Shown here piece after piece: positions 3,337 through 51,860 of a stretch of DNA of 64,000 nucleotides; within the stretch, counting starts at the first letter, position 1; the number at the start of each line of letters is the position of its first letter. Position numbers and translations under genes: made by a program. The notes beneath the pieces are model-generated. The model was not told where the DNA came from and made no database searches. It saw nothing but the letters and a program-made list of their open reading frames with translations. The stretch comes from Heliocidaris tuberculata. Its lineage: Eukaryota; Echinodermata; Echinoidea; Camarodonta; Echinometridae. The stretch is from contig CM046850.1 of NCBI GenBank assembly GCA_025618425.1, positions 4,003,986 to 4,067,985 on the forward strand, in the 5' to 3' direction.

Positions 3337-3367
<31 letters not shown>

Positions 3368-5354: not shown

Positions 5355-5689
5355 GAATCTTCTCTCTCTTTATAATGCATAATCTACTTAATATTTCGTC
5401 TATCATACTGAATTGCAATTCAATAAACTTTACTTTTGAATTGATACCTGTATCTTATTAGTGTGCCTGGTGCATCCAACTGTCAAGCCTTATTGGCTTT
5501 TACGTTTGCACCATTTTCCACTGAACTATTATGCCGATGGTTATAATTTTTTGTTGTTGTTTACATTTTCCTTGTAACCATTTTAATCTATACCTTTATG
5601 ATTTTCCATCTTTTTATCTTAAATATATTTGATGTGATGATGATGGAAATAAATGATTTCAATTTCAATATTTAAAAGCTGATTTATTT

Positions 5690-7180: not shown

Positions 7181-7186
7181 TTTTTT

Positions 7187-7503: not shown

Positions 7504-7527
7504 TTGTAAACAGTTTAATGAACCTAC

Positions 7528-7838
7528 CGCAAACCTTGCAGCCAGCTTCTCAAAGCTGATCCTGAAGGATTCATGCTCCACCCAGGACACCTCCAAGTAC
7601 TTGTAGCGGGTGCTTCCCAGTAGCGCTGAGAGACAGTCAAAGGTCTCTTCAGGACTCATGTAATGCAGGAGCATGCCTGCCAAAGGTGCCAGGAGAGGAC
7701 AGTAGAGGATGTCCGGTCTAGTGTCGGCCACAACGCAGAGGAGACGGTTGAGGCAGGCTTGACCCTCTGACTTGAGGGCATAGGAAGCGACGGGATGGTC
7801 AGGGTCCACAAAGCTGGGTAAGGTGATGGTGGAAGGAT
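7528..7838 (-). CDS. TBC1D24: TBC1D24-like exon: TBC domain core
   Basis: The acceptor is TTTTTCTCTCAG at 7839-7840 and the donor is GCG|GTAGGT at 7527-7522. It is 311 nt long, from phase 1 to phase 0. It encodes DPSTITLPSFVD, SEGQACLNRLLCVVADTRPD, ILYCPLLAPLAGMLLHY, and ends SFRISFEKLAARFA. This is the most family-specific stretch. From memory human TBC1D24 has LPLPEFVD, ILLCIANQFPDISFCPAL, LLLHYSIDE and CMTFGDLVNKY at matching spacing. The next exon was not found in 1-7527, so a large intron probably carries the gene off the left edge. Confidence 0.87.
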
Positions 7839-13800: not shown

Positions 13801-16800
13801 CAATTGTGATGTAAATTGTTACCGTGCGTATCCGTTGTTTAAGCCTTTGTACACTTTAATGCGTAACAATACTGGGCATATGCACTGATAAAAGCTCACT
13901 GACAAGAAAGGGTGGAATATGGCAAAATGTTGCCCTCTTTTTTAGTACACTGGTCTATGGGGAAAACCTGGAAGAGGGCAATATAGCAAATATTGAATGC
14001 TCCGGTTACGGATTTGGAGTAGCGTGCAAAATACGGCTTTTTATTTTGCAGCTAGAATGCCCTGTATAGGTAATAATAACTAGTCTTTCTAAGCACCTGC
14101 TTTCTACTCAATAACACACCCAAAGTCAAACACACATATGTACTCATAAATGAAAGGAAAGATAACAGAACTCCAAGTTTTGACTTTATAGTTTCAAGTG
14201 ACTAGCAAAAGTGCAGGAACACCAGTTTTTGGTCAAATTTTCAATTTTTCCAGTTTGTAAACTGAAACAAAACAATAAAGAAATCATGCACAGAAGCTAT
14301 AACTTCTATAAATCAGACATTGTACAAAATGGAAAATGATGTATACATGTAGATGTAATATGCAAAAGGTCAATATTTAAAAATGCATATTTCTAGTAGT
14401 GTACACCTACTGGTCATGCATCCATGCTACCACACTCACACCCACACCAAGGCTCACATAACAGGTTAGATAACAGAACTCAAAGTCTGATTGTTTACAA
14501 TGAACTCACCCACCGCCTCTGTCCCCTTGCCAAAGAGTCCCTCTTCTACTTCATTATTGATGTGGGAAACAGATGCTCCCGCTTTTTTCACTCACTCACA
14601 AACACACACACACACACACACACCCACACCCTAACATTCACACATAAAAGACCCGGGGCCTGTAACATAAAGAGATACACTTAAATCAATCTTACGATCG
14701 ATATCAATCGTAAGTCCATGGCAAACCATATACTGAAGAGTTACAATTGGTCGTAAGATTGATTGTATCTCTTTGTTACAGGCCCCAGATCAGAGGACTC
14801 AAAATCAGACTTTACACAATGAACTCACCCACTGAGTCTGTCCCCTAGCCGAAGAGTCCCTCTTCCATTTCTTTATAGACATAGCATACAGATACTCTAG
14901 TTTTTCTCATTCACACACACCCTCACACCCCACTAACGGACACCCACATCCAATGTACACACACACACAAGCTAGATTAGAGAACTTATACTATGATTTT
15001 TATATGATGTACTCACCCACTGATTCTGAGTCTTTTCCAAAGAGTCCTTCTTCAACTTCCTTGTAGACATGGGAAACAGATGCTCCAGCACTGTTCTTGA
15101 GACATAGCTGTTTCCACATCTCCTTGCGAACCTAATGATTACAAATAATTTCTCTTGAGGATAAGGTTTGATGGTTTATAGAATAAGAAGGAGCCATCGA
15201 CTTCTAGTTCCAATGAACAGATAATTAGCTTTAAAACCTTGTATATCTACCAGGAGAATATCAAGATATCGAATGAAAAGGGCATTAACTCTACCAATAA
15301 AAAAAATAAAGGTTAAAATGATATGATTAATGAAGATAACTTTTCCTTCAATCCCCTCTAAAAGAAAGCCATAATGGGAGTGCAAATGAATCAGGCAAGC
15401 AGGAACTTTCAAATTAATCATGATGAAAATCATATATTTTCTTCTTGCAGTTGACTTCAGTTTCATTTAGGATGCAAATCCTTCTATATATTTAACAGGA
15501 GAATGTCAGTATATCGAATGAAAAGGGCATTAGCTCCACCAATAAAAAAATATAAAGTTTACAGATGATATGAGTAATGAAGATAACTTTTTCCTTCAAT
15601 CCCCTCTAAAAATAAAGCCATAATGGAGAGTTTAAATGAATCTGACAAGCAGCAACTTTCAAATTAATCATGATGAAAATCTTATATTTTCTTCTTGCAG
15701 TTGGTTTCAGTTTCATTTAGGATGTATTTCCAGCTCATTTAAAGGTGATAAACATCTACTATCGTTAACTTCACATATAGAAACTTGACCTTTAAAGATC
15801 AATCCAACTTTTGTAATAAGTAGATTTGTGTGATAGCAGAAAAATAAGAGAAACAGGTTGGTAAAAATTGGAAGGAAATGGGACAAGCATTAAGAAAGTT
15901 ATGGATGTTTGAATAATGAGATCACTAAATCTATGCGAATTTCAAATTGGCAATATAGTCAGTCGATTGCGACATATTCTCACTGAACTCTCCTGTTTAT
16001 CATATACTAAAATATCACTGTTTACCGGTTTTCTCCTAAGCTCCTTTTCCCTCGGGATAGTACTTAAAAATCAAAGAAGACAGCATACTGCTTTAGATCC
16101 TCCAAAAAGAAAAAGATCCAACGAAGTACTATATTTTGAAAAATTGACAATTTAGTCAGTTTGTGTGTTAGAACAAATTGGAGAGTTGTCCGCTGCAACA
16201 TCACAGTGACATAACCCAATCAGCCAATTTGAAATTCCCATATATGTATAGTGATGACAACTTTCAAAAATTCATAACTTTCATATTGTTTGTCCTATTT
16301 CATTTAAACATTCACCAAATAGCTTATCAGATTTTCCCCGCTTTCTTTCAGAGCAACTTATCATCAAGGTTGGATTTTCCTTTAAGTAGCAATGGTCTGG
16401 TGAGAGCTTGAAAGGCATTACCTCATATCTGTTAGGAAGATAATGCCTCTTTGACTCTGAACAGATGATATTTCAATAAAACATTTAATCACCTCGTGTT
16501 CTGTCTCGCTTGCCCACCGTTCCTTGCGTATGACCTTCTTCAGCCTCTTCAGATCAGACGGAATGTCTTCAGGCGAATGCTGTGGACTCTTCGTACCCTG
16601 CTCTGTCCTCACAGTCTGCACCAAGTCCGCATCCACCCACAGCATCAGTGATCGTCGTTTGCTCTCATCTGCGCCCCCTTCCCCCTTCACCCTTCTTTGG
16701 ACAGCAGAGGGCAGTTCAGAAACTTTATCTTCTGCCTCAGCTTCAGCATTTGATGCAGCTTGTCCATCAGTGGTTGTTGTGTCGTTGGCATCTTTGATCT

Positions 16801-19800
16801 GGACCGTTACTGAGACGGTTGGAACATCGTGCTTGGAAACAGGTTCTGTCACTCCTTCCTCAGTAGAGGCATGGTTACTATTTGCTATGTTAAGAGAAAA
16901 ATAGGATATTACTAATCATAACTTCATGAACAGAATGCTTCCTACAGTCATTAGTCAAACAAGATCAATTGAGAAAGAATGTAAATACATCCAGCTTGTA
17001 AAAATCAAAATATTAGGTCTACTTCATACAGAATCAAAGGAGAATTGTATTCAGATTTAGAACAAGATTAATATACAATACTCACAATTCATTCTAAGGA
17101 AACAAAGTACTTAACAAGTTGCTATGCAAGAAACATTCACTGGTTTAATAACACGATATGCTTTGCATGAAGTATCTGTCACTCTGACTGATACCAATTT
17201 TGGTGATCTGAACAATAGTAAATACTACCATAAAAATCGAGACCAACTCCTTGGTGTGATCATTGATCACTGACCTTCAGACCTCACAATGGGAAATCAG
17301 GATATTAGAAAGGTATTATAGTGACAAAATAAAGAATACAACTATTGAATAGAAACTGTCCATCACAGAGACCTTTGTCTTATTCTCTGAAAACGAGGTC
17401 TGCTTACTCCTTGAATGATCTAAGGGTCAGGCTTTGAGCTGATTTCAGACATCTTCCAGTTGGAGTCATGATTGAATGGATCCCGTTGCACGTTCCAAAC
17501 ACAACAACTTTTTAAGGTCAATTTCTCAGCCCTTTATACATTAAATAAATTATATCACATATCTGTACTGTTAATAAATTTACTGTAACAATATCACAAA
17601 AATGACAAATATGCAAATATATTTCTGAAATACTGTTGCAATGTAGGTAAGGACAATCAGGTATATATATTACCAATCTAGACGATGCAGAGGGGCACAG
17701 ATGTTTAAAAAGGCTCATATGCAATGATACAACTAAAAAATTCTAACAATCAGAAACTGCATGTTTCTCAAAACTTTATGACAGGTAAGACAAAGGTATG
17801 CCAGATTTAGTTGGAGGAAGGGGGCACATGCCCTCTTTGCCCCCCCCCCCCCCCCATCCCGATCCTCCACCGCAAAGAAATGACCAGCTTACAAATGTTT
17901 CAGTGAATACACACACTATGTAATTAGCTCAGATATCATTGTCCTATACTGATAAAGGGTGCACACAGGGGTCAAACTGATATTGCAATTCAGCCTAATA
18001 TAATTTTATGTACATACATACACGTATATACATAATCATACAATCTTTAATACAGTGTATAGGTTTATGTACATGTACATGTATGTATACAATATCCTTA
18101 TAAAGTACTCTTCAACATTTTTCACAGACTAATCCTGTTGGTGAATTGTGCATAATCTCTTAATGAAATATCTCAAGCAAAATCCTTAAATCATTTATTG
18201 TGAAGAAAAAAGACATTCCTTCCTCTAAGAGGTCAGTACAAAATGCATAAAGAAAGCAAAAGCAAGAAACCTAAAGTAATAAGATCTACAAGTTTCAGTT
18301 GTTTAATTCAGAATTTGTTTCCTCACTTTTCATGATTCCTTTCATACTTTGCAAGGACTTTGCATCAAGTCATTTTAAATATATTTTGTACCTTTAACCC
18401 ATCAATTAGACAGATACTTGTATACATGAATAGTTAATAAACAGATACTCCCATAACATGTATCTCATCTATTATTTGTGCTTACTAGGGTGGATTGGGT
18501 GAAGCAAGGAAGAAAGAGAGTAGTCTGCAAGCACAGACCCTAATTTGACACTTTATCAGAAAATCACTGTGTCTTGAGAGAAGCCTAACCCAGCTACCTA
18601 ATGGTCGTGTCAATATCAGCTATAGTACATAGCCTATGGTAGTCTTATAGTGCAGTCACTCTTTTACGACTGATAAGGGTTTGTGCATGCAAACTACAAA
18701 GAGAAAGGGATGATGAGTAGATGTATAAAGTGGGTGTGTGAAAGAGGGAGAGAGAGGGGATGATGGAGAAAGAGCAGAAGTGGGAGAAAGAGGGAGAGAG
18801 AGAGAGGGAGGAAGGGGAAGATAAGAGAATAATAACTACTCTACACTGACCACAAAAATGAATATGAAAAATGTTCCTGTAATATATTAATGATTTCCTT
18901 CAACTGGTCTTTACATGTTTTACTAGTTTTACTTATAATTGGGGGCAGTAATGAAAATGCAAGACACACATATATATTTCAGTCATCAGTAAGAACCTAA
19001 TATCAATATGTAAAATATGGCAATTTTTTTACTTGGGATCTACCTTCCCTTATCTCAGTATGATGTGAACATACTGCATTATTAACACCTATCTCTTTAA
19101 CAGCATTTCTAGATTTCCAATTTCCAATTACTTGCTTAAATGTAATGCATTAATTTTTAATGTTAATTTACTATTGTTTCTCTTTATTATTATATGTAGA
19201 TCTGGTCAGGCTAAATATCACTGAGTACAGAATTCAAGTCAAGTAAAGAATTCAGGTCAAGTTTTAATGGTTGCAGAAAGTTTGTTAATAATAATTTACA
19301 ATTTTTTCAAGTAGCAACTATATTGGTATCATCCACAAAGAGGACAAAACTATAAAATGATGAAACATTACATAAATCATTTCTATAAATTATAAACAGG
19401 AGGGGCCCCAGTGTGGAGCCCTGTAGGACTCCACACTGGACCCTCTCATGATGAGAAACAATTGTAAATCAACATTACCATTAATGAGCATCTTCTCAAA
19501 ATGTGGTTGGGTGGGTTTGAAGGAGGGGGTTTGGCAGAGTTTGCTCATTAAACAGAAGGTCAAGTACCAAAAGGAGGAAAGTTTGATTACAAGCATTCTT
19601 TCACATTTTGGTTCATTTGAAGAATTTTTTTTTTTAATTCCCTTTTGAAACAAGCATTGTGTTGGGTTGGCCAACAAAAGACAATCAAAATTCTCATAAG
19701 TACAGGCATTGTTCCACAGTTAATTTCACTACCAGAACCCACTTTCATAATTTACTTGTTTGCTAACTTGATGTAAAGAGGGATGTAAAATTTGTAGTGT

Positions 19801-22800
19801 TTTGGTAGCAATTCGGAAGTACATATCCTCAACATAACATAAACCTGGTCTGTAATATCGATTGCAATGGGCAACCTTCTAAATGTCCACACGAGATGGT
19901 CATGACCTTGAGCTCTTTACGGTCAATGCAATATTGGGAGGGACCTGGTTCACCAGGGTTTCTAGTCATAGTGAAAGTAGGTATACACAAATGAGGAAAG
20001 GGGTGACAGCAACTATTGGGCATCAGCAGAAACATGTACCCCCCCCCCCCCATAGGTCTCTAATAGGCTTTTTACATTTGATTTTTTTTTTAAACCCTGT
20101 ACTATCCTTCACCCCAGACTATCCTTAACCCCAGATATTTTTTTCTTGTTCTCATTTGCAGTTTTAGTCCTGTACTATCTCCCTAGACCCTAGCCACAGT
20201 GCTTAGCCCCACATTTGGTGGTGCTCACCCTGCTCTGTCAAAGGGCTAAAATAATCCCATACTATCGTGGAGTTAGTCTACATTGGTAAAATGCAATGTG
20301 AACAGAAAGGGGGCTTTGCTTAGTCCCGTACTTTCAGTGGGGCTAAATCCTCGTTTAGCCCCACCGATAGTACGGGACTAAGCAAAATTTTGTGAAAAGC
20401 CTAATATTCTGCAAGTGTGTTCATAGCAACTACAAGAGAGAGACAGAGAGACAGAGACAGAGAAACAGAGACAGAGAGACAGAGACAGAGACAGAGACAG
20501 AGAGACAGAGAGACAGAGACAGAGAGACAGAGACAGAGACAGAGACAGAGAGACAGAGAGACAGAGACAGAGAGACAGAGACAGAGACAGAGACAGAGAG
20601 ACAGAGACAGAGAGACAGAGACAGAGACAGAGACAGATAGACAGATACAGAGACAGAGACAGAGACAGAGAGACAGAGACAGATAGACAGAGACAGAGAC
20701 AGAGACAGATAGAGACAGAGACAGAGAGACAGAGAGACAGAGATAGAGAGACAGAGACAGAGACAGAGACAGACAGAGACAGAGAGACAGAGACAGATAG
20801 ACAGAGACAGAGACAGAGACAGATAGACAGAGACAGAGAGACAGAGACAGAGAGACAGAGAGACAGAGAGACAGAGAGACAGAGAGACAGAGACAGAGAC
20901 AGAGAGACAGAGAGACAGAGACAGAGACAGAGAGACAGAGACAGATAGACAGAGACAGAGACAGAGACAGAGAGACAGAGACAGAGACAGAGAGACAGAG
21001 ACAGAAAGAGACAGAGATACAGAGACAGAGAGACAGAGACAGAGAGACAGAGAGACAGAGACAGAGAGACAGAGACAGAGACAGAGACAGAGAGACAGAG
21101 ACAGAGAGACAGAGACAGAGACAGAGACAGAGAGACAGAGAGACAGAGACAGAGAGACAGAGACAGAAAGAGACAGAGAGACAGAGAGACAGAGAGACAG
21201 AGACAGAGACAGAGACAGAGAGACAGAGACAGAGAGACAGAGACAGAGACAGAGAGACAGAGACAGAGAGACAGAGACAGAGACAGAGACAGAGAGACAG
21301 AGACAGAGACAGAGACAGAGAGACAGAGAGACAGAGAGACAGAGAGACAGAGACAGAGAGACAGAGACAGAGACAGAGACAGAGAGACAGAGAGACAGAG
21401 ACAGAGAGAGACAGAGACAGAGACAGAGAGACAGAGAGACAGAGACAGAGAGACAGAGACAGAAAGAGACAGAGAGACAGAGACAGAGAGACAGAGAGAC
21501 AGAGACAGAGACAGAGAGACAGAGACAGAGAGACAGAGACAGAAAGAGACAGAGAGACAGAGACAGAGAGACAGAGACAGAAAGAGACAGACAAACAGAT
21601 AGAAAGACACAGTGAGAGAGTGAGAGAGTGAGAAAGAAAGAGAGAGAGAGAGAAACTGAGAGAGAGAGAGAGGATAATATTGAAATGGGTACTTATTGAT
21701 TCAAGACAAAATATGAAAATAGTAGGCCAATTACTGTACAGGGTAATACAGAATGTAAACGTGGATCACAGAATTGTCCAGAGGTAATTAATCAAAAAAA
21801 AGGAGAGATAAGACAGAAATTTTATGTAAGGAAAGGTAGCCAGAGGGACATGAACATGATCCTGTTTCATAAAACTTATTATCAATAACAATTTCAACAG
21901 ATCATGACAAATCTGACCTCAGCCATTCAAATGCTAGGATTTCAGTAGCTTAAAACAGTCATTGTGATTTGTTATCGATAACAAGTTTTATGAAACAGGG
22001 CCCTGATGGAGAGAATGGAAGGTTCACATGTATTGGACACAAGAGGTGAATAATGAGGGAAAGAGGCAGGCAGAGCACTGTGTGTAAGGAGTAAAATACT
22101 GCAGGAAAAATAAGATGTTATAGAAAGGAAGAAATACGGGAGAGATGTTCAAGTACAAAGAACAGAAAAAAAACATGATGAATTTAACTGGAAAAGAATG
22201 AAAAGGTACTCTGACCTTGGGATGAATTTTCTTTTTCATTATTCATCCAAATTTCTCTTTACTCTCTAAAAACAAAAGAGTGAATTTTCACTCTTATTTT
22301 CATTCTTTCAGGAGTCACAACAGTGATCACTTAATCGGGAGTGAATATCAATTTATTTTAGAGGTCTCCCTAACATGAAAGGCGGAAAATTTCACTCTAC
22401 ATGTATTTTCACAATATTTCACTCTCCTGGGGAGTCACATCAGTGATCACTCGATTTTTTTCTTTTTAGAGAGTCCTTGCTAAACATACAACCTGTACAT
22501 TTCATAATTGAACGGCCAGACTACACGCTGAAGCACCCAACGATAATAAATTCATGAACTGGCTTTCTCATATGCATTTCGATGAGTCACCTGGAATTCT
22601 GCTATGCCTTCTCATTCCAATTACACGGCCCAAACAGCACAGTACATGTTATGTTTCTTATCTTTTGACTATTTTAGTAAGAAATATTGACAGAGATAAA
22701 TCTGGCATGCTACCACAACAGGTGTTTCAAATCCCACCAATATATAATGTATTTAATAAACATGCAATAGGCCCTTTTCATAATGTATTTAATGCTTACC

Positions 22801-28800: not shown

Positions 28801-31800
28801 AGGTAAATACAGAGAAAATATTTCAAATATTACAAAATGTGAGAGGACCTGTAAAATACCAGTGGTAAAAATATAAAGGTAAAAAGGAAAAAATCTATGT
28901 AAATGTTAGTTATGAATATGCCGTTGTAAAAATGTTACTGATTAAATTGTCAGAGGTAAAATATCAAAGGAAAAATGTCAAAGGTAAAAAAATGTCTGAG
29001 GTAAAATATCAGAGGTAAAATATCAGAGGCAAAAATATCAGAGTAAAAAATTAGAAATTTCAAAGGTAAAAAAGAAAATTCCATGAAAATGTTAGTGATG
29101 AAAGTGCCATCGAATATCACAGGTAAAATGTCACAGATTAAATTGTCAGAGGTAAAAATAGAGAAAAAAAGTCAGAGGTAAAATATCAGAGGTAAAAAAT
29201 TTTCAGAGGTAAAAATGTCATAGATTACTAGTATATCTGTACAAAGTAGACTTCCGGTCAAAATTTACATAACATTTCTTCATTTATTGACTGATCAGAG
29301 CAGCAAAAGTTCATGATTCGACAGCCAACATGAACAAATCACTAAAGCTCCTGGATCCTCTTACAATCTCTTACAATGGCAGAGGCATACACAGTTTATA
29401 TTTGAAGAATCTTTCATGACAGGAATTATTTAAAGGCTAAATTGATCACATTTTGTTCTTCAAATTGGCAACAATAATATTTTTCTTTTAGTGCTACATG
29501 GTTCTAACAAAATGCAATGTCTTTGAAAACAATATACATCATTAGAAACTTAGTCGAAAAGTTGAAAAAATTGCCAATTTTGATAAAAAATAGTGATTTT
29601 GAACCTCTCAATGTGTTGCCAATTTAAGGATTATGAAGCTTATTCTCATTTTTGAAATTCCTGGCATCAAACGCAATATGGTCATGCAACAAAAATGGAC
29701 ACAATGTGTGTAGACATTTTTGCTTTTTCTACTCCTGCATCTGGTTATTTTTTAGAGCTCTGAATCAAAAGTTATTGAGCCAAACCACAAAATGTGGTCA
29801 ATTGTCTTGAAAGGGTTAAGAATCCACTTTCAAGAAAATCATCTAAAAATATATGATGCACCGATTCCAACACTGATCCCTTTTCTCCTTAATAATGTAA
29901 ACTTTATTGGTATACATGTATGTATGTGTCTATCTATATCTATATCTATATCTACATGTATATGTATAATATTTTAATAATCATGCACATGCATCGATGG
30001 ATGTTTAAGATGATGAAGGTTTACCATTATCATCATTTTCTGGACTTTCTGGAACCTCCGCACCACCTCCTCCACCATCTTTCCTCCCTCCATCAGCCTC
30101 TGAATCTTTTTCTTTCACCTGAACATCCTCAGGTGAAAGACCATCTTTCTTGATTTCTTTCCAAAAATCGCCATGTTGGATAATAACGAAATCAGCACTG
30201 CTGACAGACTCTGAATCTTTGCTGGCAGCAGTTGCTTTGTCATGAGAATCTGTGGACTTTGTGTGTTCTTTTCCTGACTGTTCTGTGTTGTCTGTGCATG
30301 AATCAGTATGTCTGAGGACTTCAGTGTTTTCCAAGTCAGTGTCAGTACTTTTCTCAACATCTGCATCTAAATTTTCCATGGTGGAAAGATAGGACAGAGT
30401 TTCTGAAGGAAGCCCTGTGGAATTTCTGGGACCTGCAGAAGACTCTATAACAGGGGACTCTGATTCTGTTTCTAAAATAGTTTCACTTGACTGATCAGAT
30501 TTTTCTACATTATTTGAACTTCCCTCCCTTTTGCGGGCTGCGTACGAAAAGCCAAACATTTCTACCGACCCTGACCTTTTTACTCGGAACCATGGAGATC
30601 TAATTTGACGACGGGTATTCTCTCCATCATTTGAACCTTCACCAGTTTTGTTTTCAGGGTAAGCGAAACCAAACATTTCTACCGAGCCGGACCTTGTAGT
30701 ACGTGCTTGGGGAATAGAAAATCGTCTCACTTGACTACTCTTTGGACCTTCACTATCAGAATAGTCACTATCCTCAGTATTTTCATTGTTTTTCTTTTCA
30801 GAGTAAGAGAAGCCAAACATTTCAACTGATCCGGATCTTGTAGTTCGTGCTTGGGGGATAGAGAATCGTCTCACTTCACTACTCTTTTGACTTTCATTTT
30901 CAGAAATGTTGCTATCCTCAGTACCTTCCCCACTTTTTTTGGCAGGGTAAGAGAATCCAAACATTTCTACTGATCCAGATCTCTTCACCCGAGCCATGGG
31001 AACAGAATTTGGTTGCAGATTTCCACTGTCCCCGGCATTTGAACCTTCTGCTGTTTTGTATTCTGGGTAAGAAAAGCCAAACATTTCAACTGATCCAGAC
31101 CTTTTCACCCTAGCCCTGGGAACAAGAATTGATTTAGGAGCACTCTTTTGATTTTCACTATCATCATCATCCCTGTATATGAACCCAAACATATCTACAG
31201 ACCCTGATCTTTCAGTCCTTGGTCTAGCAGAGGGATCATCTGCAAAAAGAATATTCTCTTCTTTATATTCTTCCTTAGAATTTGCAGGAGGCTTGGGTTT
31301 GTGTTTGGGAGATGAATTCTCTTCTGATTCGACAATGGGGTGCAACGGGAAGGCAGAGTTGCCTGTTTTCACATCAACAGGTTCCTCAGGGGTTGGTTTA
31401 AGATCATCTTTCTCTTGATCATCACCAACAACTACTCCTGTGCTTCTCTCAGTTTTGTTGGCTGGGTAAAAGGACCCAAACATTTCAACAGACCCAGACC
31501 TTTTAACACGTGCAAAGGGGACAAATTTTTTATCTAGGTCATAGCTCTTTTGACTATCAGTGCTGTCAGATCTATCTCTATTTTCTGAATTTCCTCCACT
31601 TTTGCTGACTGGATAGGAGAAGCCGAACATTTCTACAGACCCAGACCTTTTTACCCTTGCCTGGGGAACAGAATATCTTGGAATGCTGCCATTTGCCCCA
31701 TCATTTGATCCTTCCCCCATTTTGTTTTCAGGGTAAGCAAAGCCAAACATTTCTACTGATCCAGACCTTTTCACTCTTGCTTGAGGGATAGAGAATCGTC

Positions 31801-34800
31801 GCACATTTTTACCCTGCTCATAACTGGAATCTTCCCCAACTTTCTTTTCTGGGTAAGCGAATCCAAACATTTCTACCGATCCAGACCTTGTGGTTCGGGC
31901 TTGGGGGATGGAAAATCTTCGCACTTGATGACTCTTTCCACCATCACTTTCAGAAATGTCACTTTCCTCTGTACTTCCCTCACTCTTCTTTTCAGGGTAA
32001 GCGAAACCAAACATTTCTACTGATCCAGACCTTGTAGTACGTGCCTGAGGTATAGAGAATCGTCGCACGTTGCAACTCTTAGGACTCTCACTATCAGAAA
32101 TGTCATCTTTACTTCCCTCAATTTTTCTAGCTGGGAAAGAGAATCCAAACATTTCAACTGAACCTGATCTTTTGACCCGAACCCTTGGAACATACGTGGG
32201 TCGAAGAATGCCACTGTCCCCATCACTTGGACCCTCTCTAAGTCTGTTTTCAGGGTAGGAGAATCCAAACATTTCTACTGATCCAGACCTTGTGGTGCGT
32301 GCTTGAGGAATAGAAAATCGTCGCACGTTAGCACTCTTTTGGCTCTCACTATCAGAGTTGTCTCTTTCATCAGAACCTGCTTCTACTTTCTTTTCAGGGT
32401 AGGAGAAGCCAAACATTTCTACAGAACCAGACCTTTTCACTCGTGCCCATGGGGATCTAATATGGCAACTGACATTGTCACTGGCATTTGAGCCTTCTCC
32501 CGTTTTGTTTTCAGGGTAAGCGAATCCAAACATTTCTACCGATCCAGACCTTGTAGTACGTGCTTGGGGGATAGAAAATCTTCGCACTTGACCACTCCTT
32601 AGGCTGTCAGTATCAGAAACATCACTATCTTCCTCACTTTTCTTTTCAGGGTAAACAAATCCAAACATTTCAACTGATCCAGACCTTGTAGTACGTGCTT
32701 GAGGAATAGAAAATCGTCTCACTTGACTACTCTTTGGACCTTCACTATCAGAAATGTCACCATTCTCAGTACCTTCCCCATTTTTCTTTTCAGGGTAAGA
32801 AAACCCAAACATTTCTACTGAACCAGACCTTTTAACCCCTGTCCCAGGAACACAAACAGGCTGCAGATTTCCACTGCCTCCATCATCTGAACCTGCCCCT
32901 GCTTTGCGAGTTGGGTAATAGGAGCCAAACATTTCTATTGATCCTGACCTCTTTACCCGTGCCCGAGGAACATACATTCGTTGAAGGCTTCCTCTGTCTT
33001 CTGTTTCCTCTGCTTCTACGATAGGGTGTAGTGGGAAAGCAGAGTTGCCTGTGTTCATGTCAACAGGTTGCTCACAGGTTGGTTTAGGATCTTCTTTCTC
33101 TTGATCATCACCAACAAGTACCTCAAGACTTCTCTCAGTCTTGTTGGTGGAAGACCCAAACATTTCAACAGACCCGGACCTTTTGACTCTTGCAAAGGGC
33201 ACAGACTTTCGATCAAGGTCATCACTCTTTTGACTATCAGTGCTGTCAGATCTATCTCTATTTTCTGAATTTCCTCCACTTTTGCTGACTTGGTAGGAGA
33301 AGCCGAACATTTCTACAGACCCAGACCTTTTGACCCTTGCCTGAGGAACAGAAAATCTTGGAATGCTGCCACTGGCCCCATCATTTGATCCTTCCCCCAT
33401 TTTGTTTTCAGGGTAAGAAAAGCCAAACATTTCTACTGATCCAGACCTTTTCACTCTAGCTTGAGGGATAGAGAATCGTCGCACATTGCTACCCTGCTCA
33501 TAACTGGAATCTTCTTCAACTTTCTTTTCTGGATAAGTGAATCCAAACATTTCTACCGATCCAGACCTTGTGGTTCGGGCTTGGGGGATCGAAAATCTTC
33601 TCACTGGACCACTCTTTTGGCTGTCAGTATCAGAAACGTTATCACTATCTTCTGTACTTCCAGCATTTTTTTTTTCAGGGTAGATGAAGCCAAACATATC
33701 GACTGAGCCAGACCTCTTTACCCGTGCCATAGGAACTGAAAGAGACTGCAGATTCACACTGTATCCAGCATTTAATTCTCCTCCAATCTTGTGGGGTGGG
33801 TAAAATGAGCCAAACATTTCTACTGATCCTGACCTTTTTACTCTTGCCCCAGGAACAAATGAACGTTGAAGACCTCCCTTTCCTTCAGTTTCTGAACCTG
33901 CTCCTATTTTGGGAGCAGGGTAAAATGAGCCAAACATTTCCACAGACCCAGACCTCTTAGAGCGTGCCCTAGTGGACGCACTGTCAAAGTGAGAGGTGTC
34001 TGTGCAACTGACATTTTCTGATACTGTGGCCATTGCCTCTTCAGTGTTCAGCTTGTCAGCTGTCATAATTTCACAGTCATTGGAATCGTAATTTTGTGTT
34101 TCTGCTTCGATTTCTGCAAGGATCTCTTCAGGATTGACAACAGCATTGTCACCTTGTGACTCTGCTGAGTGGGTTGTGTCTTCCATCTCTGCATCTTGGA
34201 TTTCTGCTTCTATTTGAGCAAGAAGAACGTGTGGATCTATAAGAGGTTTACTTGAATTTTCAGAGGCAGTGGGACCTTTTTCAGTTGAGTTATCAGATTC
34301 TTGTGGTGGGAATGTTTGATTTGTGCTGACTGTATCTGTGTCATCTTGCAGTTGCTCTTGTGTATATGTATGAGTTTCTCCTAGAACGAGAGAATTATCG
34401 GTAGATTGTGGTGGATCATTTAGTATGTCTGTAATAGGGGCTGGTGAGTAACCTGTGGCAGACTGCTCAGAAGGCAATTGTGCCTCACTCTCTGAGGGTA
34501 TTGTTTGATCACTAGGGGTGCAAGAGGGGTGCAGTGAAGGAGAGTCTTGAGGATCAAGAGGTGCAATAGGAGATTCTGAGGTAGGAACAGAAGAAACTGC
34601 AACAGAGGGTGAGTGAGTAGGTTCCTCTACAGAGGTGCAGTAGATAGAGACAGAGAAAGAAACAAACAAAATAAAGACATTAAGGGTACAGAATCTTCCA
34701 AATGAAGCCAGATACAGATTATGGAATGAACATATACATGTACATGACAATCATTCTAAGTCCTTACTGGTAAATGCGTCAATTATTGGAATGCAAATGT

Positions 34801-37800: not shown

Positions 37801-39931
37801 ACACAGTACACATTGTATTGTAGCTGCAGCATATAAGCATTGTATTAAACTACTGTACTAGTATTTAGTTTACTTTGTACATATAACTGCTGTGAGTACT
37901 GTCAGATTACTGGCTTAAACCACAATTGCATGTTCGTAGGTCAAAATCGTAGTACTTTTTTCTTTGTCAGTGGGGAAATTAGTGCCCCGCGGGCGGGTGT
38001 GATATTGCATTGAGTGCCGGTTGGAAATTTCGAGTGGTGGAAAGTTCCGACTGGCCCCGACCACCGTAGTGACAACGCTGGCTGGGAAGTGCGGCCGGTA
38101 GCCGGTGTGTGAGGCCGGTCCATCGTTTGCATTGCAAAATCACTTTAAAATACATGGCATCATAATATATCACATATCACACACACAGGGTACATGATGC
38201 CATGTACTTTAAAGTAATTTTTGCAATGCAAATGACGGACCAGCCACACACCAGCTACCGGCCACACTTCGCAGCATCTACTCTACACTGAATTTGACCT
38301 TCTGCCTGTCATTGTGTGTGTTTAAATACCAAGAAGAGACAGAAAAGGAAGATGAGAACTATGTTCGATTTAAAACAAACAAATTTGCAATATTTGCATT
38401 CATTCTCTGATTTAAGGTGGTGAAATATGTTTTCAGGAAACAAGTAAATCCAGAGAGAAGTTGTCGTTGTGGCCAGATGACTCCTTTGAATTTTTTTCCA
38501 ACTGAGCTGCATAATCGAACTACTATTACATGTATGTACACAAATTTCTGTTTAGAATTACATGTAAAGAGAAAAGGAGTCACATAAGAATTCTACAAAG
38601 ATTTTAAATCAGATGAAAACACCTGACAACTGGATCAAAAATGTTGTCAATATTTAGAGTGAGACATTTCCCAGCACATTCTACATGTACCATTTTCACA
38701 GCCTAAAACTTCATGCTTTTCACAGATTACAGGACCACAAACACATTCATTACATATACATGTAAGTACATGGTGTACAGTGATCTACATGTACCAGTGC
38801 CTTACATTCAATCTACCTGATGAAAAAGAAAGATATACTGTGTCGTAGTGCTACAAATTATTCAGCAGAATAGAATATAGTATGTAAATTACCAGCCATG
38901 ACAAGCAAAAGAGAGTAATTATAAAAGCTTAGCCATGTCGCGTGCAGGCTACATGAGGATTGGCTATATACGAACTTTATGAAAAGGAATAGATATATAT
39001 AGCAATTACTCAAAAGCATGCTAACTTTCACATGTCATTAAATATTTATGAGCTGAACGTAGGCTTCATGTTCAAGGTTCATGTTTGAAGTTTGCCACAT
39101 GTATAGAAAAGCAAAATGTACATGTAGCAAAATATATTGAGGCGATGACATCCATGAATACAAGCTTGCAGCATGACTGTAATTATTCATAATATGGACT
39201 CTGAGATATTATCTAAATTGGTTCCTAGGGTTTTCTAAACATAATTATCAGATTTTATCCTTGGATTGACATTGATATAAAATGAGCATTTTCGAATGTA
39301 ACATAATATACAGGTATTCTATATTCAAACACATACAAAGAAGCCTTTCTTTGCTCGAAAATGCAGCTTTCAGGAAAATTGTATAGTATCACAGGCTCTT
39401 ACATTTGAGCGCAACCATACAGAAATATCACATTGGCCTCTGGATTTTTGTTCAGTGCACAACATTTATCCTTTTTTTTCCTTTACCTTAAAATTATCTT
39501 AATATCAAATGAAACAATTCTACAAATGTACAAATAATTGTAATTCTAAACTACATGTATGCATCAGCTCAGTGTTGAATTTTCCTCATAATCTACATGA
39601 TTTGTTGGAATACATGTAAATAGGTAATACAGTCAAACCTGTATAGCAAGACTGCTCAAGGGAGAAACAAAAAGTGGATCCCACTGACTAATTTTTCAAT
39701 AAGAATCACCATTTCAAGCCAGGACAAATAAAGTGGTCTTTAAAGAAAGGTGGTCTTTCTATACAGGTGGTCTTTAAAGCAGGTTTGATTCTACACTGTT
39801 CTACCTGATTGTGCTACATCTCCATTTTTATCAGCTCCTGAATCTGTCTCCGCAGCTGGAGGATCAGTATTTGTTTCCATGGCAACATCGCCCATCTGGG
39901 CATCACCCGTTTCATCTGGAGGAGTCGGCAT
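7528..39931 (-). CDS. TBC1D24: TBC1D24/Skywalker-like gene with giant N-terminal repeat region (3' end off window)
   Basis: Whole-gene span. Coding exons in order are 39931-39805, 34626-30025, 16884-16493, 15131-15017 and 7838-7528. Phases agree at every junction (1, 1, 0, 1, 0), giving 1,849 codons without a stop. Residues 1-42 are an acidic leader, about 43-1576 come from one repeat-rich exon, and about 1690-1849 match the start of the TBC domain of TBC1D24: LKRLKKVIRKERW, then VRKEMWKQLC, LPSFVD, PDILYCPLL, LLHY. Human TBC1D24 (about 560 residues, recalled) has LPEFVD, PDISFCPAL and LLHY in the same order. Family members are TBC-TLDc proteins that bind phosphoinositides and act in endosomal and synaptic-vesicle traffic. 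The usual TBC arginine-finger motif IxxDxxR is not visible, as I recall for this subfamily. The rest of the TBC domain and any TLDc domain would lie left of the window. The vertebrate protein has no comparable extension. Gene structure is good; orthology is probable. Confidence 0.8.
8341..8837. mobile_element. 497-bp TTAA-ended hairpin element
   Basis: Arms of about 205 nt (8341-8548 and 8633-8837) are near-perfect inverted repeats around a loop of about 85 nt. The ends are TTAAAGGGGGTACCC and its complement. The arms include GTGTCCCAATTTCAGCTAGG and GGTAACCAC-x-x-TGACGT. It lies in the TBC intron and has no coding capacity. Confidence 0.8.
8880..10022. mobile_element. AGCTCAT-ended element with about six 150-bp tandem units
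   Basis: It is bounded by TTAGCTCATAACC on the left and GGCCGGATGAGCTAAAA on the right. Between about 9010 and 9830 six units repeat ATTTTGCATAAATTAGCATA, AGACAAAATTTCAAAATTCC, AAGTTCAATGAACCTCATGA and TCAATAAATGAGGAAGAAGA. A GGACGACGGACGACGGACG tract follows (9950-9975). No protein is encoded. Confidence 0.65.
10030..14430. other. Intron stretch without recognised coding sequence
   Basis: AT-rich sequence. A GATTTGATTTGACTGATTTG tract (10856-10890) resembles the 3' tail of a LINE. Around 13560-13990 two blocks with GGGCAATAT-like ends suggest an old interspersed element. No exon is supported. Confidence 0.45.
14510..14579 (-). pseudogene. Second partial duplicate of the TBC exon, frame still open
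   Basis: Seventy nt align gap-free to the 3' part of exon 15131-15017, with an intact GTGAGT donor at 14509-14504. The frame is open and gives GASVSHINNEVEEGLFGKGT and then EAV, close to the real exon (GASVSHVYKEVEEGLFGKDS). A (CA)n tract (14601-14623) sits where the 5' half of the exon should be, and no good acceptor is visible. It could be a relic or part of an unrecognised alternative exon. Confidence 0.55.
14601..14623. repeat. (CA)n microsatellite
   Basis: An AC dinucleotide run inside the partially duplicated TBC exon region, on the side where the missing 5' half of the exon would be. Confidence 0.85.
14655..14786. mobile_element. Fold-back element with GGGGCCTGTAAC ends
   Basis: GGGGCCTGTAACATAAAGAG at the left pairs with CTCTTTGTTACAGGCCCC at the right, and inner arms pair ATCAATCTTACGA with TCGTAAGATTGAT. 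It sits between the two duplicate exon copies. Confidence 0.75.
14829..14898 (-). pseudogene. Decayed partial duplicate of the TBC exon, with stop
   Basis: Seventy nt align without gaps to the 3' part of exon 15131-15017, followed by the same GTGAGT donor (14828-14823) and similar downstream intron sequence. The frame reads VYKEMEEGLFG and then meets TAG (14847-14845), so inclusion would truncate the protein. The 5' part of the exon (the RKEMWKQLC segment) and its acceptor are missing, replaced by CA-rich sequence on the plus strand. It is probably a dead exon copy, or a poison exon if a cryptic acceptor exists. Confidence 0.6.
15017..15131 (-). CDS. TBC1D24: TBC1D24-like exon: second part of TBC domain (ancestral copy of a triplicated exon)
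   Basis: The acceptor is ATTAG|G at 15132-15133 and the donor is GTGG|GTGAGT at 15016-15011. It is 115 nt long, enters in phase 0 and leaves in phase 1. It encodes VRKEMWKQLCLKNSAGASVS and then HVYKEVEEGLFGKDSESV. The segment RKEMWKQLC corresponds to the RGKVYQRLI helix of TBC1D24. Two partial copies of its 3' 70 nt plus the donor lie just downstream at 14829-14898 and 14510-14579. Confidence 0.85.
15241..15728. repeat. Two-copy tandem duplication, about 245 bp each
   Basis: Copies at about 15241-15475 and 15483-15728 share ATATCGAATGAAAAGGGCAT, CTTTCAAATTAATCATGATG and TATTTTCTTCTTGCAGTTG. They lie in the TBC intron just upstream (in gene sense) of the triplicated exon. Confidence 0.8.
15792..16386. 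mobile_element. TTAA-ended MITE, family C copy 2
   Basis: Inverted ends TTAAAGATCAATCCAAC and AAGGTTGGATTTTCCTTTAA. It lies in the TBC intron between exons 16493 and 15131 and shares its interior with 2070-2592. Confidence 0.6.
16493..16884 (-). CDS. TBC1D24: TBC1D24-like exon: acidic linker and start of TBC domain
   Basis: The acceptor is a T-rich tract ending CATAG at 16885-16886; the donor is CACGAG|GTGATT. The exon enters in phase 1, completing GCA with the previous G, and leaves in phase 0 (131 residues). The first part is a disordered linker rich in E, A and T. The last 23 residues, from DLKRLKKVIRKERW to SETEHE, look like the helix that opens the TBC domain in TBC1D24 (ELKQLARQGYW in human, recalled). 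A long plus-strand open frame over the same bases is only the antisense shadow. Confidence 0.8.
16900..19250. other. Intron stretch without recognised coding sequence
   Basis: AT-rich sequence with a C-run near 17841, a TACATGTACATGTACATG-type palindrome tract near 18070 and a GA-rich tract (18740-18825). No exon or element is supported. Confidence 0.45.
19293..19650 (-). pseudogene. Non-LTR reverse-transcriptase relic
   Basis: On the minus strand one frame reads ERVQCGVLQGSTLGPLLFII, then YRNDL and later SFVLFVDDTNIVAT before a stop. These are the GVPQGS-x-LGPLLF and FADDT motifs of non-LTR reverse transcriptases, with A to V in FVDD. A frameshift and stop lie just upstream near 19470, and a neighbouring frame carries MLINGNVDLQ. 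It is a short dead fragment in the 13-kb intron. Confidence 0.7.
20433..21600. repeat. GACAGA simple/satellite repeat, about 1.17 kb
   Basis: Units GACAGA, GAGACAGA and occasional GATAGA or GAAAGA alternate without interruption. All open frames here, including one of about 410 residues on the minus strand (Ser/Leu/Cys/Val only), are artefacts of the repeat. Confidence 0.95.
21861..22003. mobile_element. Fold-back element with CCTGTTTCATAAAAC ends
   Basis: CCTGTTTCATAAAACTTATT at the left pairs with AACAAGTTTTATGAAACAGG at the right, with an inner TTATCAATAACAA/GTTATCGATAA pair. The end type recurs near 41198. Confidence 0.7.
22261..22474. mobile_element. Fold-back element with ACTCTCTAAAAA ends
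   Basis: ACTCTCTAAAAAC and TTTTTAGAGAGT are inverted ends. Inside, GGAGTCACA-x-CAGTGATCACT occurs twice as a direct repeat. Confidence 0.6.
22761..23057. mobile_element. Fold-back element with TGCAATAGGCC ends
   Basis: ATGCAATAGGCCCTTTTCAT at the left pairs with ATGAAAATGGCCTATTGCAT at the right. The arms continue with CAATAGTCAGAATG and its complement. Confidence 0.7.
23147..23697. mobile_element. hAT-like non-autonomous element with 8-bp target duplication
   Basis: GTCATAGC flanks both sides (23139-23146 and 23698-23705). The inverted ends are G-rich: CCCTGGGGGGGGCCACTCAG at the left and the mirror of CTGAGTGGCCCCC at the right, extending through GTGTACACATGCG. The interior repeats GGGGTAATTTT several times. 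An 8-bp duplication is typical of hAT elements. Confidence 0.65.
24545..24660. repeat. Short tandem repeat, about 28-bp unit, 4-5 copies
   Basis: Units carry CAGGAAATAGTTAAAAATAA with small changes. It forms the C-terminal end of a chance 177-residue open frame on the minus strand. Confidence 0.65.
25436..26536. repeat. GTTTAAA-rich palindromic zone with an internal inverted repeat
   Basis: Both flanks (25436-25570 and 26125-26536) contain dozens of TTGTTTAAA/TTTAAACAA palindromes. Between them two inverted arms (about 25650-25865 and 25900-26130) share GAGGTAAGCATTTAGACTAA, TATTGCAATCTGATC-like and CATGACAT sequence. Each arm contains an exon-like piece ending AGAG|GTAAGC (reading MLQKFQMQELIDTFR in one arm). 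Confidence 0.65.
27262..27560. repeat. 20-bp minisatellite, about 15 copies
   Basis: Units of AACACTTTATTTCAGTATCT type repeat with scattered changes for about 300 bp. It lies in the TBC intron. Confidence 0.85.
27670..28215 (-). repeat. Dispersed repeat family B, copy 2
   Basis: Reverse-oriented copy of the 1640-2045 repeat: AATCTTGAGTTCTGGGAAAA, TTCGGGCCGAACATTCATGC and TATTTTGATGATTCCAAAA are shared with copy 3. Borders are approximate. Confidence 0.55.
28530..29225. repeat. Degenerate repeat of AAAATGTCAGAGGT type
   Basis: Irregularly spaced units of ATGTCAGAGGTAAAA fill about 700 bp. The unit length varies, so this is an old decayed minisatellite. Confidence 0.7.
29409..29819 (-). mobile_element. 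TTAA-ended MITE, family A copy 2
   Basis: Reverse-oriented copy of the element at 703-1126. Its right end keeps AAGGGTTAA; its left end has diverged and lacks a clear TTAA. It lies in the 13-kb intron just downstream of the giant exon. Confidence 0.7.
30025..34626 (-). CDS. TBC1D24: Giant 4,602-nt exon with 25 RSGSVEMFG repeat units
   Basis: The exon is open throughout, between an acceptor (pyrimidine-rich, TGTAG|AG, 34628-34627) and a donor (G|GTAAAC at 30024). It opens with Ser/Thr/Pro/Glu-rich sequence. Two related coil-like acidic segments follow (QIEAEIQDAEMED and EIEAETQNYDSND). Then 25 units of about 35-80 residues lie between roughly residues 267 and 1400. The unit core is (RVK or RTT)RSGSVEMFGF-x-YPEKK, followed by an acidic linker and often VRRFSIPQAR. 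Three copies vary the core (two SVDMFG, one SIEMFG). The tail is acidic and ends SPENDDN. RSGS and RRFS fit basophilic-kinase sites, and RRFSIP also fits a 14-3-3-like pattern. No known domain is recognised. Function is unknown; a multivalent phospho-regulated scaffold is an inference. The reading frame over this length is itself strong evidence of coding selection. Confidence 0.88.
34640..37360. other. Intron stretch, little recognised
   Basis: AT-rich. A possible single Tc1/mariner-like end, CAGTGCTGGTCAAAAGTTTC, occurs at 35335 without a visible mate. A family C end, AAGGTTGGATTGCCTTTTAA, occurs near 36752. No exon is supported. Confidence 0.45.
37365..37612. mobile_element. Element with GTGGCGGATTTAGGGGGG ends
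   Basis: GTGGCGGATTTAGGGGGGCAC at the left is mirrored imperfectly by AAATCCTGGATCCACCCCTGA at the right. The interior is C- and T-rich with GTCAGAGAATTTT blocks. A related element lies at 51663-52006. Confidence 0.55.
37674..38283. mobile_element. Nested fold-back element
   Basis: The outer ends GTAGATGCTGCGAA and TTCGCAGCATCTAC are inverted. Inner arms at about 38085-38160 and 38190-38270 pair over roughly 75 nt (CCGGTAGCCGGTGTGTGAGG with its partner, and TTTGCATTGCAAAA). The left arm is apparently split from its outer end by about 400 bp of other sequence. Confidence 0.6.
39628..39795. repeat. Dispersed repeat, GTGGTCTTTAAAG type, copy 1
   Basis: CAGTCAAACCTGTATAGCAA, GCTCAAGGGA and GGTGGTCTTTCTATACAGGT recur at 54678-54868. 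It abuts the donor side of the first visible TBC exon. Confidence 0.65.
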
Positions 39932-40555: not shown

Positions 40556-40968
40556 TTAACCCTTTCAAGACAATTGACCACATTTTGTGGTTTGGCTTAA
40601 TAACTTTTGATTAAGAGCTCTAAAAATTATACCAGATGCATGAGTAGAAAGAGCAAAAATTTCTGCACTCACTGTGTCCATTTTTGTTACATGACCATAT
40701 TGTGTTCAATGCCAGGAATTCAAAAAAGGAGATTAAGCTTTAAAATCCTTAAATTGGCAACACATTGAGAGATTCAAAATCATTGTTTTTTATCGAAATT
40801 GGCCATTTTTCCAACTTTTCGACAAAGTTTCTAACCATGTATAATGTTTTCAAAGACATTACACTTTATTAGAACCATGTAGCACTAACAGAAAAATATT
40901 GTTGCCAATTTGAAGAAAAAAATGTGATCAATTTAGCCCTTAAATAATTCCTGTCCAGAAAGGGTTAA
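40556..40968 (+). mobile_element. TTAA-ended MITE, family A copy 3
   Basis: TTAACCCTTTCAAGAC at the left and CCAGAAAGGGTTAA at the right, both with TTAA. It is intergenic and has the same interior as copy 1. Confidence 0.78.
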
Positions 40969-43557: not shown

Positions 43558-43978
43558 TTAGCCCTTTCAGGACAGAAATTATTTAAGGGCTAAATTGATC
43601 ACATTTTGTTCTTCAAACTTGCAACAATAGTATATTTTTTTATTGCTACATGGTTCTAATAAGGTGTAATGTCTTTGAAAACAATATGTACATGTACATG
43701 GTTGGGAATTTCTTCGAAAATTTGAAAAAAATGCAAATTTTTATAAAACAATGACTTTGAACCTCTCAATGTGTTGCCAATTTAGGGATTTTAAAGCTTA
43801 TTCTTGTTTTCAAAATTCAGTGCATCAAACGCAAGATGGTCATGCAACAAAAATGGACATACATGTAGGGTGTGCAGAAAATTTTGCTTTCTACTCATGC
43901 TTCTGGTATATTTTATAGAGCTCTGAATCAAAAGTTATTGATAACCACAAAATGTGGTCAATTGTCTCTAAAGGGTTA
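43558..43978 (-). mobile_element. TTAA-ended MITE, family A copy 4
   Basis: Reverse-oriented copy: TTAGCCCTTTCAGGAC at the left and CTAAAGGGTTA at the right. It lies 139 bp after the 2A/PHD retroelement relic. Confidence 0.72.
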
Positions 43979-49800: not shown

Positions 49801-51826
49801 ATCTGTTGAAATACAGTATACCAGTACATGCAGCTACATGGAACCTGTAATAAGAATGAAGAAAAAGTTTTTTATTGATTGTTACCTGATATATTATTGA
49901 TACTTATTGAAATGGTGCATTAATCTGCTTAGACTCCACTGAGGTACCTTGATGAATATCATAATGTGGGGTTTTTCATAAGGCAAAATGTGAATATATA
50001 TATATATTTTTTTAAATTTAATTAAAGATGATTTTAAAATAATGTAAAAATATTTGTGTCCTGAAAATGTTAAATCATAAAGAAAAGCCCTCCATGATTA
50101 CATGTACATGTATATTTCCTGTCCTCATTCATACGTACATGTACATGTACATACACTGTACATAGCTTTGTACAGTATCTGATTTCATTTACTCTGTTTA
50201 CATTGCCGAGAGCATCTGTGTGTCTATCCATTGAGGATGATATAGTACTAGGTCCCATTACAGAGAGATTATTAAAATCACATTACCCTGCTAAGTTATG
50301 AATGCTCCAATCGCCATAGCCTCTGCCCCAGGCTAACCAAGAGTGTAAAATCAATAATGCAGATATGCATGCGTGGGATGCCGGGTAAGGCAATACATAC
50401 ATACTTAAAGGACTTATCCTCATGGGTGGTGATAGCCTGTTGTATTAAAGTGCAACTGCAAGCTGCATTTAATTTAGCAGTCTTGATGAAGAACAATTAT
50501 GAATGACAGTTTGTGTCATGCAATTTGCTGGTGATCTTAGACCAGTCTCTATGGATGCCCTGTGGTAGGGGCATTATCCATCTATAGGATGGGGGAGGAG
50601 AGGAGGAGGGATAGAGGGGAGGGGTGGGAATGGAGAGATGGGAGAGGCTAACATGTAGGACATATCCTCAGGGGAAGTGATAGTGTGTAATATATTACAG
50701 TACAAGCTGCATTTAATTTAGCAATTACATGTACATGTATGATGAAGAACAATTATGAATAATAGTTTGTGTCATGCACTTTGCTGGTGATTTTGGACCA
50801 GTCTCTATGAATGCACTGTAGTAGGCATTATCCATCTAGATGCATGATACACAGTTACACACACTGTTATTCATAATTGTTCTTCATCAGGATTGCTAAA
50901 TTAAATGCAGGGGTACATGGGATGGGGGAGGAGGGGTAGAGGAGGAGGGATGAGGAGGAGGATGGATGAGGAGGAGGGGGAATGATGGAGAAGGTGGGGG
51001 GGGGGGGAAAGGAGGTTATACATGTAGGACTTATCCTCAGGAGTAGATAGAGCCAGCAGTATATTACCATGCATGCTGCATTTTGATGTAGCAGTCTTGA
51101 TGAAGAACGATAACCATGAACAGAGTATATTAATCTGTCATATTATATACTCTTTGCATGCTGTGATATGCACTTTGCCATTCTCTGTGGATGCTTGGCG
51201 TGGCAGGCTTGCAGCAAAATGTTTTTATAAGGACAGGGGTTTTGATCCATCTTCAGTTGAGGGATAGGGGAGGAATGGGTGCAAATACATTAATCTGAAA
51301 AATATATTCTTATTGGACACACAGCTGTTTCTTATTCTAATATTCAATATTGCTTTTAAAGTTGAAATGTCATGTTAACTTCTTGCTTACTTGAATTGGG
51401 TGGTTCCTGTATTAAGCCTATGGAACCGATAGAATTCAGTTGTCAAGAGGTTAATGAGATACATATAAATCCAGGAATAAACTATTGTCTAATAGACTAT
51501 ACATGTACTTAATAAAGTTGAGAGTAAGGCAATGAATAAGACAACATTATGAATTCAGGCAAATGTATCATCACAATTATCACATCATGATTAATTTTAG
51601 GAAAACTGTTATATAAGTAGGCTACCATAAATGACATACATGTATACTGAAGGCCTACATCATAGGCGTACCCAGGGGGGTGTTTTGGATGTTCAAACAC
51701 CCTCTTTTGGTGTTCAAGCACCTCCCTTTTGGTGTTAAAACATCACCCTTTAGCAGTGTTTTAGGTGTTTAGAAATGGAACAAAATCTTTTTTTTAACCC
51801 CAAAATGCTGATAACCTTTTTTTTTT

Positions 51827-51860
<34 letters not shown>

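Follow-up and report, generated by a model that had tools for sequence, protein, structure and literature searches.

A 64,000-nucleotide stretch of the sea urchin Heliocidaris tuberculata (contig CM046850.1, hereafter C19, positions 4003986-4067985; the window) was analysed, together with the assembly it comes from (897 Mb, 69 contigs). A giant exon at 30025 to 34626 of the minus strand lies inside a gene of the TBC1D24/Skywalker type. In humans, TBC1D24 is linked to epilepsy and to hearing loss (PMC5614904). We put at about 0.6 the probability that the exon is an optional, probably alternatively spliced cassette of this gene, carrying a selected multivalent docking array built from 25 copies of a short peptide.

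The gene was outlined with a related protein of 691 residues, P0001. Its parts are the following.

39805..39931, minus strand: coding part of exon 1, with the ATG at 39931, starting MPTPPDETGD... and ending in phase 1; aligned to the start of P0001 and found by the P0001 genome search
30025..34626, minus strand: symmetric (phase 1-1) giant cassette exon of 4,602 nucleotides, defined by open frame, splice sites and phases
16493..16884, minus strand: exon 3, linker and beginning of the TBC-domain region
15017..15131, minus strand: exon 4, TBC region, VRKEMWKQLC...
7528..7838, minus strand: exon 5, TBC domain, DPSTITLPSFVD..., matching PF00566 (5.9e-10) and the Skywalker structure 5hjn (7.1e-15)
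C19 3998547 down to 3986413, below window position 1: remaining TBC and TLDc blocks

The genome search with P0001 (E <= 0.001; 64 of the 308 first-look candidates scored) gave 13 matches. Eleven were collinear blocks on the same strand, running from C19 4043916 to 3986413, and two fell in a second assembled copy described below; at this threshold and among these candidates, no further gene of the TBC1D24 kind was found in the assembly. With the cassette as a twelfth block, the TBC+TLDc gene spans 57.5 kb and extends beyond the low end of the window. Stops were present inside five of the 11 matched rows. We take them as matches overrunning exon edges, a point checked for exon 4 only, where the real exon borders leave the stop outside. 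The TLDc part belongs to the same gene, P0001 residues 462-691 matching C19 3989178-3986413 collinearly and on the same strand in three matches, the middle one of which (3987104-3987433) has two internal stops. PF07534 (TLDc) was assigned to P0001, and to P0002 at 3.2e-30. When the three minus-strand frames of 1-9000 and 8900-17900 were searched against Pfam, exon 5 alone was matched. The gene thus resembles TBC1D24/Skywalker in that the TBC domain of exon 5 matches 5hjn, that the relatives carry PF00566 and PF07534 and that one of them, from Diadema setosum, is recorded as 'skywalker-like'. It differs by an optional insert of 1,534 residues with 25 repeats ahead of the TBC domain. A 1.2-kb tandem array of AGAGAC type (20435-21672) was also noted in the intron separating the cassette from exon 3.

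The preliminary description of the window had proposed an uninterrupted exon of 4,602 nucleotides fitting the phases of both neighbours, and this proved correct. The frame is open from stop to stop over 30005-34750 of the minus strand (1,581 residues), with an acceptor ...ctctgtag/AGGAACC at 34626 and a donor ...GATAATG/gtaaac at 30025. The cassette continues the frame of exon 1 (39931-39805) and is itself continued in frame by exon 3 (16884-16493), and the five-exon model within the window, 1,849 codons long, is free of stops. Because the cassette is in phase 1 at both ends, its inclusion or its skipping keeps the frame.

Forms without the exon were found among relatives. A protein search with the TBC part over candidates of 495-1575 residues returned three proteins, P0001 and those of the sea urchins (Echinoidea) Diadema antillarum and D. 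setosum, with identities over the searched region of 90%, 76% and 74%, respectively; over 1394-4436 residues, D. antillarum was returned again, as the single protein. In the 691-residue open reading frame of P0001, whose longest contig has 2,236 nucleotides, MPTPPDETGD... is joined directly to ANSNHS.... Since the gene spans 57.5 kb here and the whole reading frame of P0001 is held by a 2,236-nucleotide contig, we infer that P0001 is transcript-derived. The skip isoform predicted from the window aligned with it end to end, across the 39805/16884 join, with 272 of 315 residues identical and one gap. Isoform X2 of D. setosum, a record of 661 residues, likewise lacks the cassette exon. In the D. 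antillarum record (1,403 residues, 'isoform X1' in a second label), an insert of 744 residues stands at this junction. These alignments show that the symmetric cassette is skipped in a relative, and the cassette appears to be older than the split from Diadema. In the mRNA of H. tuberculata, it is presumably included. The insert of about 1,534 residues would stand before the TBC domain, as first described, but it is not a fixed N-terminus, since P0001 and D. setosum X2 are without it.

The D. antillarum record also disfavours the idea, already raised with the preliminary description, that the exon belongs to a separate gene, because its homologous long exon is found at the corresponding position of the TBC1D24-type gene. 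In a related explanation, the long exon would be the terminal exon of a transcript of its own; unspliced at 30025, it would read NGKPSSS-stop and end at a poly(A) signal near 29908, and the array protein would have no TBC domain. Indeed, an in-frame TAA starts 18 nucleotides below 30025, and the segment 29903-30024 contains ATTAAA near 29978 and AATAAA near 29908. However, a GT donor stands in the right phase, exon 1 is shared, and in the D. antillarum record the homologous exon is followed by the TBC domain. We consider this explanation improbable, although terminal-exon use and splicing could coexist.

Outside the array, the following elements of the cassette were compared with the Diadema insert.

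34091..34237, minus strand: head motifs DPHVLLAQIEAE and NPEEILAEIEAE (Diadema DPREILAQLAVE and DPEMILAQIRAE), pairwise alignment
30338..30412, minus strand: tail motif LPSETLSYLSTMENLD (Diadema LPTETLAYLTEMENLD), BLAST 56% over 25 residues, E 1.2e-4
30179..30193, minus strand: DFVII, a peptide resembling an LC3-interacting region (LIR; consensus from PMC5538626); DFVLV in the Diadema tail

The head motifs are two copies of [DN]PxxxLAxIxxE, and the Diadema record likewise has two. BLAST of model residues 1-229, exon 1 included, against Diadema gave 26% identity (E 4.9e-8). The tail motif follows a pattern common to Diadema, LP[ST]ETL[AS]YL..MENLD. DFV[IL][IV] is present in both tails; the two were paired by eye, the global alignment having left them unpaired. 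LIR-like matches in the cassette tail number two against 0.42 expected. Peptides of the LIR and GABARAP-interaction motif (GIM) type occur in TBC proteins and in ULK1/2, and the table of PMC5538626 includes TDDFVLVPH of ULK2. In comparison, Diadema DFVLV fits [W/F]-[V/I]-X-V and DFVII the wider LIR consensus, a putative resemblance of motif in the tail of the cassette.

The array itself lies between the head and tail motifs.

30530..34003, minus strand: array of 25 units, each taken as a 32-residue frame (16 residues before plus 16 from the R of RSGSVEMFG)
Unit peptide of the array: RVKRSGSVEMFGFSYP

The number of units first proposed, 25, was confirmed by a count of the RSGS[VI][ED]MFG cores. 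They are spaced by 36-97 residues; 22 read exactly RSGSVEMFG, two have D for E and one has I for V. R1, S4 and F8 are found in every unit. An Arg at position -3 is found in 24 units, with all six Arg codons in use; the exception is unit 9 (GTGVK), which reads RARVK in the second assembled copy. Downstream, the sequence is less constant (F10 in 20, Y12 in 23 and P13 in 20 of the 25 units). Thus, of the near-invariant core R-x-x-RSGSVEMFGF-x-YP given in the preliminary description, RSGSVEMFG and the Arg at -3 are borne out, FGFxYP being more variable. A genome-wide search by the DNA pattern of the unit gave 48 matches, 44 of which fall within the two arrays. One match on C2 and two on C18 were translated and found not to be units; the fourth outside match, C19:30755632, is identical in its 20 bases to one of those on C18.

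Two causes had been offered for the constancy of the core, protein-level selection or recent homogenisation, and the comparison of units decides for the first. Pooled over all unit pairs, which are non-independent since the units are copies of each other, the nine core codons gave a proportion of synonymous differences (pS) of 0.540, a proportion of non-synonymous differences (pN) of 0.011 and a dN/dS of 0.012. The dN/dS was 0.42 for the 16 codons before the core and 0.28 for the seven after it. A core fixed in protein while synonymous differences are wide reflects protein-level selection and speaks against recent homogenisation, which we reject. The large synonymous differences also indicate that the array is not young. 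Higher-order blocks are legible by eye in the order of unit types. The clearest one relates units 4-7 to units 16-19, with 72% protein and 77% DNA identity over 201 codons (pS 0.33, pN 0.20).

A profile built from the 25 units recovered all of them in the model, whereas P0001, P0002 and P0003 gave no match at E <= 100. Since the Diadema exon is without the unit, the array does not belong to what the two exons have in common. It is thus lineage-restricted, either gained in the line of H. tuberculata or lost from that of Diadema.

The window is not the only assembled source of this exon. A second copy lies 177 kb away, at C19:4211012-4215610, with seven differences in 4,599 nucleotides and no indel. 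Six of the differences change an amino acid and one is silent; none is within the nine-residue cores. The duplicated stretch, C19:4196587-4250986, corresponds to window 15647-64000 and beyond, its high end lying beyond the sequence compared. The longest piece that could be aligned, 26.1 kb, has 98.6% identity, and the low end of the stretch adjoins a gap of 500 N. The copy contains the cassette together with exons 1 and 3; exons 4 and 5 were not found in it. The second copy is probably an uncollapsed haplotig, a partial real duplication being the alternative. A second real copy of the gene was set aside on account of the 98.6% identity, the 500-N border and the presence of only exon 1, cassette and exon 3.

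We also considered that the array might have expanded neutrally, inside a disordered linker that tolerates repeats, and might have no binding function. The Diadema exon exists without it, linkers and spacing vary, and the two assembled copies differ mostly by amino-acid changes (six of seven), at about the intron rate. Against this, the core has a dN/dS of 0.012 at a pS of 0.54, and the nearly fixed Arg at -3 uses all six codons. A purely neutral origin of the core constancy is unlikely, and an array devoid of binding function seems to us very unlikely.

The preliminary description knew of no named domain with this core, and no entry of Pfam or of the Protein Data Bank (PDB) contradicted it: the cassette matched no Pfam family up to E 1 and no PDB sequence up to E 10. 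A protein search with the cassette (candidates of 843-2683 residues, the 7,986 sharing most words scored) returned none at E <= 0.001; such length-limited searches could miss unit-bearing fragments of other species. No records of other well-studied urchins surfaced in them, an absence that is uninformative. An AlphaFold2 model of three consecutive units, made from eight rows, had a mean predicted local distance difference test score (pLDDT) of 47.8 and a predicted template modelling score of 0.12. These predictions are in line with a disordered motif array having no confident fold.

The cassette is most likely a disordered multivalent docking module. When skipped, an ordinary TBC+TLDc protein of about 690 residues would be made. 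When included, about 1,534 disordered residues would be placed between the 42-residue start and the TBC domain. A motif close to (RRFS[IV]P)-x-A-R-[VT]-[KT]-R-S-G-S-V-E-M-F-G-F-x-Y-P would have been multiplied to 25 by duplication of units and blocks, and selection on the peptide would hold the copies constant. Each core may act as a docking site for a single folded partner. Carried in many copies by a membrane-trafficking protein, such peptides would then raise avidity and concentrate the partner on endosomal or synaptic membranes, with splicing as the on/off switch of the docking array. With such an array, an otherwise ordinary trafficking protein would become a binding platform with many arms. 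The array would, moreover, have arisen or survived in an already optional disordered exon, the protein being frozen while the DNA drifts, and its history bears on the origin of multivalent scaffolds. A natural TBC1D24 form with 25 peptide copies would be a near-ideal bait (20-residue peptide x 25) for finding the partner.

A mitogen-activated protein (MAP) kinase is a tentative candidate for this partner, suggested by motif resemblance. The docking-site (D-site) pattern [RK]-x0-2-[RK]-x3-5-[ILV]-x-[FILMV], as given in PMC11982978, is fitted by R-x-[KT]-R-SGS-V-E-M-F and was matched in 25 of 25 units, always ending at M7, as compared to 3.5 of 25 in within-unit shuffles (maximum 8 in 300). The D-motif of JIP1, KRPTTLNLF, which has a Pro among the key residues mutated in PMC12463012, aligns without gap to KRSGSVEMF; the two share K, R and F, and two other hydrophobic positions are replaced by hydrophobic residues; nine of the 25 units are without the K before R. 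As in MAP kinase D-sites, JIP1 and the phosphatases with a kinase interaction motif (KIM), a basic cluster, a spacer and a hydrophobic-x-hydrophobic element follow one another, with a Ser inside the site. The differences are the 25 copies, as compared to three reported for MKK7 (PMC2928751), the fixed SGS spacer and the missing Pro. The Ser at R-x-x-S could act as a phospho-switch, as in the KIM phosphatases. Phosphorylation of a Ser within the KIM abolishes MAP kinase binding (PMC1761141).

A possible second type of docking element accompanies the first. Fx[FY]P was found in 16 of 25 units (15 FxYP, one FxFP), as compared to an expectation of 0.39 when the whole array is shuffled, the Y form being a looser F-motif. 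The canonical F-motif (DEF) is FxFP (PMC12463012). Taken together, the cassette could be a 25-site MAP-kinase dock with JIP1-like D-sites, a basophilic phospho-switch, a frequent F-motif and a LIR-like tail directed to Atg8-family membranes. We hold this complete scheme to be unlikely; if it were true, splicing would decide whether the trafficking protein serves on vesicles as a sink or as a scaffold for MAP kinases. Motifs for calcineurin, Siah, beta-TrCP, AP-ear and PP1 seemed poorer fits.

Several observations weigh against a docking array or against a MAP kinase as its partner. No cassette-including transcript was seen for H. tuberculata. The two assembled copies of the exon diverge by 0.15%, which is not below the neighbouring intron bins (0.10-0.39%, one at 0.56% and one at 2.28%); with exon and intron divergence about equal, recent constraint is not visible there. 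The low pLDDT is based on a shallow alignment, with eight rows taken from a single array, and DSSP yielded no assignment. The D-site pattern also matches 11% of the 32-residue segments of P0001 and P0003 (146/1,288). Because the units are copies, the match is effectively one observation copied 25 times and the fair figure is the chance of one such peptide matching, 11-14%; in addition, numerous classes of motif were compared post hoc. Fx[FY]P (16/25) is less conserved than the core (25/25), and the key Pro of JIP1 is Ser here. The invariant S2, G3, S4 and G9 and the near-invariant E6 are not demanded by a D-site. Ser/Thr-Pro is rare in the array (5 against 14.2 after shuffling) and denser in its flanks. 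No link of TBC1D24 to MAP kinases or JNK was evident from the titles among the literature matches listed. Overall, given the few Ser/Thr-Pro and the core residues that a D-site does not explain, a docking array is likely while a MAP kinase as the partner remains doubtful.

Another explanation keeps the same gene and cassette and overlaps with the docking array in all but the partner. Basophilic kinases would phosphorylate the units, those of the CAMK/AMPK group at RSGS and PKA at the RRFS in front of it, and a phospho-binding protein such as 14-3-3 would read them. Counted with the usual kinase and 14-3-3 consensus patterns, the array contains 42 RxxS against 15.6 after shuffling, 10 RRx[ST] against 1.7 and 10 RxxSxP against 0.9, and R1, S4 and F8 are fixed in all units. 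However, such sites need no nine fixed residues, and RRxS is found ahead of only 10 of the 25 cores. The 10 RxxSxP (14-3-3 mode I pattern, RxxpSxP) are all RRFSIP upstream of the core, none being in the core. A Gly right before the Ser, as in RSGS, is unusual for 14-3-3 and also counts against phospho-sites of this kind, which we regard as rather unlikely.

The basic residues of the array recall, finally, a multi-copy precursor of secreted peptides nested in the locus, with RVKR sites, a repeated peptide and acidic spacers. Rx[KR]R occurs 15 times against 1.2 in shuffled arrays and RxxR 25 times against 8.3; constant copies are separated by variable acidic spacers. Yet exon 1, which is shared with the TBC protein, was judged by eye to be without a hydrophobic leader, and the open frame just upstream of the long exon has no Met. 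Besides the nine units having no K before R, no constant cleavage site follows the core. A secreted precursor is therefore largely refuted and has a very slight probability.

In the preliminary description, the array on a membrane-trafficking protein was called a new architecture. This was too strong, as motif arrays on trafficking proteins are known. In PMC7093645, the tail of FAM21, a component of the WASH complex, is described with 21 LFa repeats engaging several partners. In either case, a trafficking protein bears a long tail in which a short partner-engaging motif recurs about 20 times. They differ in the motif, LFa being L-F-acidic-L-F, and in the carrier, FAM21 not being a TBC protein; no optional exon is mentioned in the description given there. 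A literature search with RSGSVEMFG found no paper and, going by listings, none was found on TBC1D24 in sea urchin. Within the searches made, the host family and the idea of a motif array are thus known, and the unit, its copy number and its place in an optional TBC1D24 exon appear to be new.

Elsewhere in the window, Rfam gave no match at gathering score. An opposite-strand neighbour gene at 48502-52620 (plus strand) contains pieces of the 5'-nucleotidase family: one matches PF05761 at 7.8e-15, and another, weaker match falls short of the cut-off. A dispersed repeat of about 410 bp is found at 702-1120, 29411-29819, 40556-40962, 43564-43978, 53258-53677 and 61255-61669. Its copies occur in both orientations, are about 84-90% alike and are probably those of a short mobile element.

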